Below, piece by piece: positions 1,152-3,098 of a stretch of DNA of 29,566 nucleotides. The stretch is from a virus. How positions within the stretch are numbered: position 1 is the first letter of the stretch; each line of letters begins with the position of its first letter. The notes beneath the pieces are model-generated. The model ran no database searches and was not told the DNA's origin. It worked only from the letters and a program-made list of their open reading frames with translations. Where the stretch lies: positions 1-29,566 of the IMG/VR virus record IMGVR_UViG_3300045141_000338. One strand, written 5' to 3'. Made by a program: the position numbers and the translations under genes.

Positions 1152-1568
1152 ATGAATAACGAACATACACCTTTAATAATGGGTGGCAAATTTGGTATAA
1201 CCGCAGATAATGAATTAGCTTTTGTTAAAACAAATGCAGATGGGTCTTTATCCTACTTTGTATTTGATAAAATTCCAACAGAACCCGATTCATTTTATTA
1301 TTTAAACATTACTAAAACTCCCGGCAAATATGAATCTGATTTTTTTAATGGGAAAAACCTTCAAGAGCTAATAGATAAATTTAATGATTCCGAATCTGCC
1401 CCCACCCTCAAACTCCAAAGGGATGAACTTCTTCAGGCATTGAGGGAATTGGTGGAAGTAGCGCAGGTAGCAATGGATTTCATGAAACACTTTCCAGAAT
1501 ACGATGATCACAGAAAACTAAAAGTAAGAATCACCAACGCTCTTTCAATCATTAATAAATATAAATGA
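1152..1568 (+). CDS. Hypothetical phage protein (138 aa)
   Basis: The N-terminal half (1-75) reads as beta-rich, containing GGKFGITADNELAF. The C-terminal half (about 80-138) is predicted helical, with a leucine-rich stretch around LLQALRELVEVAQVAM and an ending of the form DDHRKLKVRITNALSIIN. Helical tails of this style are frequent in small phage accessory proteins, but I know no function. The stop overlaps the start of the methyltransferase gene by 4 bases (ATGA at 1565-1568), so translation of the two is probably coupled. Confidence 0.65.
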   Translation: MNNEHTPLIMGGKFGITADNELAFVKTNADGSLSYFVFDKIPTEPDSFYYLNITKTPGKYESDFFNGKNLQELIDKFNDSESAPTLKLQRDELLQALRELVEVAQVAMDFMKHFPEYDDHRKLKVRITNALSIINKYK

Positions 1569-2434
1569 GACATGGATCTCTTTTTAGTGGGATTGGCGGG
1601 GCCGAACTTGCGGCATCATGGATGGGATGGACTAACATTTTTCATTGTGAAAAAGACGCTTATTGCCTAAAATTACTAAAACAACATTACCCTGAATCAA
1701 TAGAGCATACAGATGTTAAAACAACAGAATTTATTCAATACAGAGGCCGAATCAACGTCCTCACAGCCGGTTTTCCCTGCCAACCTTTTAGCCAATCAGG
1801 AAAAAGAAAAGGCAAAGAAGATGACAGATATCTCTGGCCGGAAACTATTGCAGCAGTTAAAGCAATTCAACCAGATTGGTTTGTTGGCGAAAACGTTCTC
1901 GGAATACTTAATTGGTCAAAGGGTATGGTATTCAACCAAGTGCAAACTGACTTGGAAGCTGCGGGCTACGAAGTATTCACGTATGTATTGCCAGCTTGTG
2001 GCATCGACGCTCCCCACAGAAGGGACAGGGTCTGGTTTATTGCTCACTCCCTCGACTGTGGACATAGGATTATCGGAGACGAGAATAGAAAAGAGAACGG
2101 CCTACAGAGCATCATTGGGAAGACAATATACTCCGGGGAATCTGACGGAACAGATAATGCGATTATTGCCGACCCTAACAGCGGTATCAGATGCAAAGGG
2201 AGGATGCACAAGACCAAACCCGAAACGACAGAACGACACATTAGCTCACGCAATGCACGGTTTAATGAAGGGGGCACCTGGAAATACTTCCCAACTCAAC
2301 CCCCGCTTTGTGGAAGAAATGATGGGATACCCAATCGGATACACCGAATTAAAGGATTAGGCAATGCCTGGGTCCCACAAATCGCGTTACAAATCTTTAA
2401 AGCTATACAAGAATATGAAACCAATACTCACTAA
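1565..2434 (+). CDS. C5-cytosine DNA methyltransferase
   Basis: A 289-residue SAM-dependent enzyme that would methylate carbon 5 of cytosine in a specific DNA sequence, plausibly protecting phage DNA from host restriction. Motifs in order: motif I LFSGIGG (6-12), the catalytic PCQ with nucleophile Cys72 in GFPCQPFS (70-76), motif VI ENV (109-111), motif VIII-like HRRDRVWF (151-158), and the closing motif X LGNAWVPQIA (265-274). Residues 160-262 would hold the target-recognition region; they are short and low in recognisable structure. That same stretch of DNA encodes a second conserved-looking ORF in the +1 frame (1713-2360). The start overlaps the previous stop by 4 bases. The specificity cannot be read from sequence. 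I see no cognate restriction enzyme nearby, so it looks like an orphan phage methylase. Confidence 0.93.
   Translation: MRHGSLFSGIGGAELAASWMGWTNIFHCEKDAYCLKLLKQHYPESIEHTDVKTTEFIQYRGRINVLTAGFPCQPFSQSGKRKGKEDDRYLWPETIAAVKAIQPDWFVGENVLGILNWSKGMVFNQVQTDLEAAGYEVFTYVLPACGIDAPHRRDRVWFIAHSLDCGHRIIGDENRKENGLQSIIGKTIYSGESDGTDNAIIADPNSGIRCKGRMHKTKPETTERHISSRNARFNEGGTWKYFPTQPPLCGRNDGIPNRIHRIKGLGNAWVPQIALQIFKAIQEYETNTH
1713..2360 (+). CDS. Nested ORF in the +1 frame of the methyltransferase gene (215 aa)
   Basis: This frame lies entirely inside the cytosine methyltransferase gene, opens just after an in-frame TAG at 1701, and runs 648 bases. The product does not look like a random shadow. It has motifs I associate, from memory, with the C-terminal part of certain phage cytosine methyltransferase proteins: IGLLAKTF (55-62), WYSTKCKLTWKLRATKYSR (72-90), a STLPTEGT segment (98-105), repeated LLLTP/LLPTLT elements (109-113, 151-156) and the ending SQLNPRFVEEMMGYP (193-207). 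The methyltransferase frame is itself intact and carries motif X downstream, so both frames appear functional. Possible roles are an accessory DNA-recognition subunit or a relic of a fused module. Whether it is translated is unknown. It ends 55 bases before the ATG of the ASCH-like gene. Confidence 0.55.
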   Translation: MLKQQNLFNTEAESTSSQPVFPANLLANQEKEKAKKMTDISGRKLLQQLKQFNQIGLLAKTFSEYLIGQRVWYSTKCKLTWKLRATKYSRMYCQLVASTLPTEGTGSGLLLTPSTVDIGLSETRIEKRTAYRASLGRQYTPGNLTEQIMRLLPTLTAVSDAKGGCTRPNPKRQNDTLAHAMHGLMKGAPGNTSQLNPRFVEEMMGYPIGYTELKD

Positions 2435-3098
2435 GCCTATTTTGTTTTCGACTCCAATGATCCAGGCTTTACTTGCCGGTAGAAAAAGTATGACCAGAAG
2501 GATTATTAAGCCGCAGCCTGTTTTAGAAGAACCCGTTGTTTCAGTGCCAAGAATCTTTAATTATAAAGGAGAGCGATTTTATGAAAAGAACTACACTGAT
2601 CGCCTTCTTTTGATGGGCAAATACCAGATCGGAGATGTTCTTTGGGTGAGGGAGACTTATGTCAAAGCCTGTATTTCAGAAGACGGCGAAGGCCCGATGG
2701 AAGGAAGCGATTGGAGATATTGGTATAGGGTTGATGATGATTGGAAGAATGAAGAATGGCATCATCCCCACAAGGACGGCCCACAACCATCGCCACGTTG
2801 GAAGCCTTCGATCTTCATGCCCCGCGAAGCTGCTCGAATCTTCCTAAAAGTAACTGACATAAAAGTAGAAAGAGCCTGTGATATATCGGAAGAAGATGCG
2901 ATTAAGGAAGGGATTGAAAGTATCGAGCAAAAGGGTAAATTGAGAGTTTGGAAAAACTATTTATCTCCTAAAACTCCTTTCTATGGCAATAATTCAATTC
3001 TTTCCTTCCGCTCCCTATTCGAATCCATCAACGGCCCTGATAGTTGGGAGAAATGGGTATGGGTCTATTCATTCAATCAAATAGATAAACCATGCTAA
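2415..3098 (+). CDS. ASCH/PUA-like phage protein
   Basis: A 227-residue protein of a type common in phage early regions. I recognise the opening KPILFSTPMIQALLAGRKSMTRR, read as an ASCH-like start where a substrate-binding GRK.xTRR element sits; the central GDVLWVRETY; then SIFMPREAARIFLKV and a closing WVWVYSF strand. ASCH domains resemble the RNA-binding PUA fold and are thought to bind RNA or nucleosides; the role in phages is not established. I chose ATG 2415 over the upstream in-frame ATG at 2364 because family members begin close to KPILFST. With this start it overlaps the methyltransferase stop by 20 bases. It ends by overlapping the next gene by 7 bases (ATGCTAA). Confidence 0.8.
   Translation: MKPILTKPILFSTPMIQALLAGRKSMTRRIIKPQPVLEEPVVSVPRIFNYKGERFYEKNYTDRLLLMGKYQIGDVLWVRETYVKACISEDGEGPMEGSDWRYWYRVDDDWKNEEWHHPHKDGPQPSPRWKPSIFMPREAARIFLKVTDIKVERACDISEEDAIKEGIESIEQKGKLRVWKNYLSPKTPFYGNNSILSFRSLFESINGPDSWEKWVWVYSFNQIDKPC

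Follow-up and report, generated by a model that had tools for sequence, protein, structure and literature searches.

The alpha/beta layout of the YGGCCR methyltransferase M.EcoHK31I was reportedly described by Lee, Kam and Shaw in 1995; its beta polypeptide (176 aa) is encoded within the gene for alpha (309 aa), in a different reading frame. In this enzyme, the larger polypeptide has been described as carrying the C5-cytosine methyltransferase motifs I to VIII and X together with a predicted recognition domain, with motif IX only in the smaller polypeptide (PMC3404938). Another divided enzyme is M.AquI, where motifs IX and X are both located in the smaller subunit (PMC3404938). No description of a nested phage pair of this kind was found in the papers searched; those on an Edwardsiella phage and on the ShiLan HNH gene concern other overlaps.

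The locus described here lies on a 29,566-nucleotide stretch of viral DNA (IMG/VR record IMGVR_UViG_3300045141_000338; the whole stretch is referred to below as the window), in which terminase, portal, head-morphogenesis and NinG genes are also present. On the plus strand, where the motifs and subunit segments given below are also located, positions 1565..2434 encode a C5-cytosine methyltransferase subunit of 289 aa with motifs I to VIII and X, termed alpha, and positions 1713..2360 encode a second subunit of 215 aa, termed beta, with its ATG at 1713 and nested in the +1 frame of alpha ((1713-1565) mod 3 = 1). The initial annotation had placed both reading frames exactly, and the three family-like peptides that it quoted from the nested product (IGLLAKTF and two others) are all present in beta. 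The two genes very probably specify an orphan two-polypeptide C5 methyltransferase with the layout of M.EcoHK31I, in which beta contributes motif IX and probably target recognition.

Compared by its published description, M.EcoHK31I is like the window enzyme in being formed of two polypeptides, with motifs I to VIII and X in the large one and motif IX in the small one, and the window presumably shares with it a small subunit that is read out of frame from within the gene for the large one, such that the arrangement itself is not new. What is added to the 1995 layout is its breadth in phages and bacteria, a measured constraint on two frames, and evidence that the recognition domain is probably in beta. 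M.EcoHK31I is part of a restriction-modification system; in the window, none of the genes scanned was recognised as a restriction gene, and for this reason the methyltransferase of the window looks like an orphan phage enzyme. M.AquI shares the natural split after motif VIII, but its small subunit has motif X, which in the window, as in 242 loci, belongs to the frame and ORF of alpha. The single-chain enzymes M.HhaI, M.HaeIII and those of the actinophage loci L248 and L257 have the same catalytic domain and the same total motif set as the window, although these are borne on one chain, with motif IX in frame with the rest.

In alpha, motifs I, IV (PCQ), VI (ENV), VIII and X are present, and an alignment of 89 homologues (A2) has invariant residues at P71 and C72, at E109, N110 and V111, at R153 and R155, and at G266 and N267. 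Motif I (SLFSGIGG, 1577..1600), in conserved columns of A2, is 5' of the overlap; within it are the PCQ of motif IV (1775..1783), which includes the catalytic cysteine C72 and the nearly invariant Q73, and the ENV of motif VI (1889..1897). Motif X (IKGLGNAWVPQIA, 2348..2386), with its invariant G266 and N267, starts just 5' of the beta stop codon (2358-2360). The phage profile phrog_363 matches alpha over its full length (E 7e-67), the alpha profile matches M.HhaI (E 3e-39) and M.HaeIII in the PDB, and PF00145 (E 3.8e-40) covers residues 1-168 only. The AF2 model of alpha (pTM 0.70) is confident at residues 1-170 and in most of the motif X helices, modelled at 259-266 and 271-288, and it represents a catalytic domain and these helices, joined by a linker that replaces the recognition domain and motif IX. 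Most of this linker, residues 175-252 (2087..2320), is predicted to be disordered (pLDDT below 50 at 175-238 and 243-252), and the segment at 181-240, which coincides with the modelled disorder, is the least constrained part of alpha. The same DNA codes for the C-terminal part of beta, whose frame is still constrained there.

Motif IX (SQLNPRFVEEMMGYP) is confined to beta, and motifs I to VIII and X to alpha; no motif IX-like string was found in the alpha-frame ORFs of 130 unique nested loci, where it is found in beta instead. In the window, the motif (LNPRFVEEMMGYPIGYT) spans beta residues 195-211 (2295..2345) in conserved columns of alignment A1, in which G205 is invariant and L195, P197, V200, M204, P207 and columns 210-211 are nearly so. 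The view in the initial annotation that alpha is intact, with all canonical motifs, does not hold, given the restriction of PF00145 to residues 1-168 and of motif IX to beta. Its suggestion of separate catalytic and recognition subunits is supported by the confinement of motif IX to beta and by an alpha model without a recognition domain, but alpha is incomplete alone.

Beta belongs to a phage family that has already been catalogued, phrog_1008 ("DNA methyltransferase"; E 7.7e-22), whose profile matches all 89 aligned beta homologues. Pfam and NCBIfam scans of beta gave nothing meaningful, and neither beta nor its profile matched any sequence in the PDB, methyltransferase small domains included. 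The AF2 model of beta alone is poor (mean pLDDT 63, pTM 0.28), with confident prediction of a beta-hairpin at residues 78-98 (1944..2006; pLDDT 84-88) and of a motif IX helix at 197-204, as might be expected if the subunit folds on its partner; a Foldseek search with this model found no methyltransferase small domain, a result that is meaningless given the quality of the model.

In the proposed enzyme, alpha would provide SAM binding, the catalytic PCQ and ENV, and motif X, while beta, translated from a start inside alpha, would bring motif IX and probably the target-recognition domain. Assembly of the two would yield the equivalent of a single-chain C5 methyltransferase, with beta standing in for the small domain missing from alpha, and with alpha residues ~175-252 serving as a loose linker to motif X that would be essentially an out-of-frame reading of the beta coding sequence. 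We infer that alpha and beta form a heterodimer, that it methylates DNA with recognition by beta, and that phage DNA would be protected in this way from host restriction. In a variant of this proposal, beta would supply motif IX and structural support, and recognition would reside in the variable segment of alpha, as in the assignment made for M.EcoHK31I (PMC3404938). This variant is rather unlikely, as that segment is disordered in the alpha model and is where constraint falls on beta and least on alpha, and as the homology between the C half of beta and L248 extends beyond motif IX; the evidence here favours beta, in contrast to the assignment to alpha in M.EcoHK31I.

An open +1 frame could also arise with alpha as the only gene, in which case its openness and its similarity to relatives would be by-products of codon bias and of the alpha motifs. 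The window-specific evidence on dual coding comes from codon-permutation tests. The open +1 stretch of 218 codons was reached by 4 of 20,000 synonymous-codon permutations of alpha and by none of 20,000 resamplings using codons of the other window genes, and the +2 frame of alpha was unremarkable in the permutation test. When the halves of beta were scored against profiles built without the window, with 300 codon permutations of alpha as the control, the N half scored 141.7 bits (best permutation 103.6, mean ~74) and the C half 70.8 bits (best permutation 35.5). Since the N half overlaps the catalytic motifs of alpha, about half of its resemblance to relatives is mechanical, an echo of those motifs, and the resemblance was no longer taken at face value after this control; the C half overlaps the poorly conserved segment of alpha. 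The echo is seen in the single-chain enzymes of L254 and L255 as well, where the +1 C half is absent, and to this extent, including the absence there of a +1 motif IX, the reading of alpha as the only gene accounts for the data. Even so, the real scores of both halves exceed all 300 permutations, and the ORF-length and profile tests together rule out chance or codon bias as the origin of the +1 ORF.

Selection was measured at the level of the family, in 51 close pairs (85-99% alpha identity) drawn from 28 loci, which are not independent of one another. In these pairs, the difference at alpha third positions is 0.050 in the overlap versus 0.205 and 0.221 in the single-coding flanks, and at fourfold-degenerate sites of alpha it is 0.044 versus 0.213 and 0.287, a five- to six-fold suppression that is limited to the overlap. 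The most variable codon position in the overlap is the first of alpha, which is the third of beta. Per possible change, the rate is 0.023 for changes silent in alpha that alter beta, 0.129 for those silent in both, 0.051 for those altering alpha only, and 0.007 for those altering both, as expected of two protein-coding frames and not of a conserved RNA structure. Along alpha, the rate of changes that are silent in alpha and alter the +1 product falls from ~0.18 upstream of the overlap to 0.07-0.14 within it and is 0.165 downstream, such that the suppression begins and ends with the overlap; the alpha-synonymous rate is lowest, 0.069, at alpha residues 121-150, near the predicted hairpin of beta. 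Dual coding at the family level is under selection in both frames, and not in one only. With changes silent in beta tolerated, motif IX missing from alpha, and the site-class rates refuting it for the family, the reading of alpha as the only gene is very improbable.

Relatives were collected from two sets of viral contigs, one retrieved with beta and the other with only alpha, and from contigs of bacterial genomes retrieved with a beta profile; all were scanned with the profiles of both proteins. A tblastn search with beta returned 69 phage records, mainly of Paenibacillus larvae phages, and many homologues of the nested protein were found. The closest relatives of the window reach ~54-56% alpha identity at best. 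All 245 loci with both proteins, whether from viruses or from bacteria, have a beta that overlaps alpha in the +1 frame. The set takes in 80 viral loci that had been retrieved with only alpha, as well as 80 contigs of bacterial genomes from several phyla, and no fused or separate alpha and beta were found in it; the long dual-coding overlap first proposed from the window is in this way borne out in its relatives, where the +1 frame is kept open. A scan by segments showed 242 loci in which frame 0 encodes the catalytic part, +1 the two halves of beta, and frame 0 of the first ORF again motif X; the loci outside this set are explained by contig ends, by frame-breaking indels, or by distant phage enzymes fetched deliberately as contrasts. 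The nested pair is spread over Bacteroidota, Bacillota, Pseudomonadota and candidate phyla.

Both nested CDSs are annotated in some phages, such as Paenibacillus phage Tadhana (54/55) and Escherichia phage K1H (gp32/gp33). The phrog_363/phrog_1008 pairs of Tadhana and K1H consist of a homologous alpha and a nested +1 beta, each annotated as a DNA methyltransferase, but only about one third of the beta residues are identical to those of the window, and the records are silent on the nesting. In other phage records alpha alone is annotated; gene callers that forbid nested genes miss beta, so that the phage methyltransferases they annotate lack motif IX, and inactivity would be expected of alphas cloned without beta. 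Conserved same-strand dual coding over ~640 nt is rare in prokaryotes, and as the two products seem to belong to a single enzyme, the family offers a good system for the co-evolution of interacting proteins that share nucleotides.

A single-chain methyltransferase in decay, its recognition and motif IX segment shifted out of frame by a compensating pair of indels or assembly errors, would produce a similar picture, and a single-chain form with the beta C half in frame is indeed known in the actinophage loci L248 and L257, as are frame breaks in some relatives. As an account of the window it is just as improbable as the reading of alpha as the only gene, being contradicted by conservation across phyla and by the +1 arrangement, with both frames open and under selection, in 245 loci on different contigs and in different genomes. 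A double frameshift is plausible as the event from which the nested layout arose in the distant past. In L248 and L257, the stretch from motif VIII to motif X contains an in-frame match to the profile of the beta C half, a match that was not found in the single-chain L254 and L255, and from it the C half of beta is taken to be homologous to the recognition and motif IX region of single-chain enzymes. By this comparison of sequences, a shift of that region into another frame probably gave rise to the nested layout. In a tree of the catalytic domain, nested forms dominate, with single-chain actinophage forms among them, and the supports are too weak to order events. A more far-reaching form of the preferred two-polypeptide reading, which we consider possible but just short of an even chance, is that the nested frame would be the entire target-recognition subunit and the middle of alpha its tolerated shadow, the pair being ancient, shared across phyla and derived from a single chain by a +1 slip, with some actinophages keeping or regaining the single chain.

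Production of alpha and beta as one chain by programmed frameshifting has also been considered, since the N-terminal catalytic part of alpha followed by the C half of beta would give motifs I to IX. Motif X, however, is again encoded in the alpha frame, such that a single shift gives no complete enzyme, a start codon is found close to the N terminus of beta homologues and is often accompanied by a Shine-Dalgarno match, and separate CDSs are annotated in the Paenibacillus phage and Kagunavirus records; a shared chain is accordingly highly unlikely. Among relatives, +1 ATGs cluster at alpha residues 43-50 and 58-63, and at one of these positions, close to where beta starts, a Shine-Dalgarno match is found at 19 of 35 ATGs, as compared with 2-6% for other ATGs. 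For the two-polypeptide enzyme of the window, translation of beta most likely starts at the ATG at 1713, which falls in the cluster of the relatives and has a weak Shine-Dalgarno match. An internal ATG at codon 37 (1821..1823) is an alternative from which a beta of 179 aa would result; AAGG lies 8 nt upstream of it, but this context is weak evidence because it follows from the KEDD codons of alpha itself. At the other end of the locus, a phage gene at 2415-3098 (phrog_874, E 4.7e-55; function not assigned) has a start that overlaps the end of alpha and is a candidate for translational coupling.

Several variant layouts were observed alongside these loci. In L248 (prophiGD91-2, 1489-2643) and L257 (Fancypants, 1501-2727), the beta-like recognition and motif IX segment shares its frame with the catalytic part, a natural contrast to the nested form that is either ancestral or secondarily fused. 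The actinophage methylases of L258 (Phelipe), L259 (Gmala1) and L266 (SchoolBus) are annotated as two genes with short or no overlap, resembling intermediates between nested and separate layouts. In the alpha subfamily of L250 (K1H), L251, L252 and L253, a stretch like motifs II-III (YYNEWDKGAAAWLRELI..) precedes motif I, resembling a circular permutation, and here too a beta with motif IX is nested in the +1 frame. Eight loci (L031, L139, L140, L152, L154, L160, L165 and L247) have a net frame shift between the beta halves, placing motif IX in the alpha frame or motif X in that of beta, which could be assembly error, decay or a real frame exchange. One such break, seen in L139 when compared with L123 (near base 486 of the compared region), falls in the overlap, within a G9/G10 homopolymer, a location that would fit either a phase-variable tract or an assembly error. 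Lastly, five loci on a Roseovarius chromosome (OX638333.1; L234, L235, L237, L239 and L240) have identical alpha and beta match statistics, which suggests repeated prophages or a repeated element.
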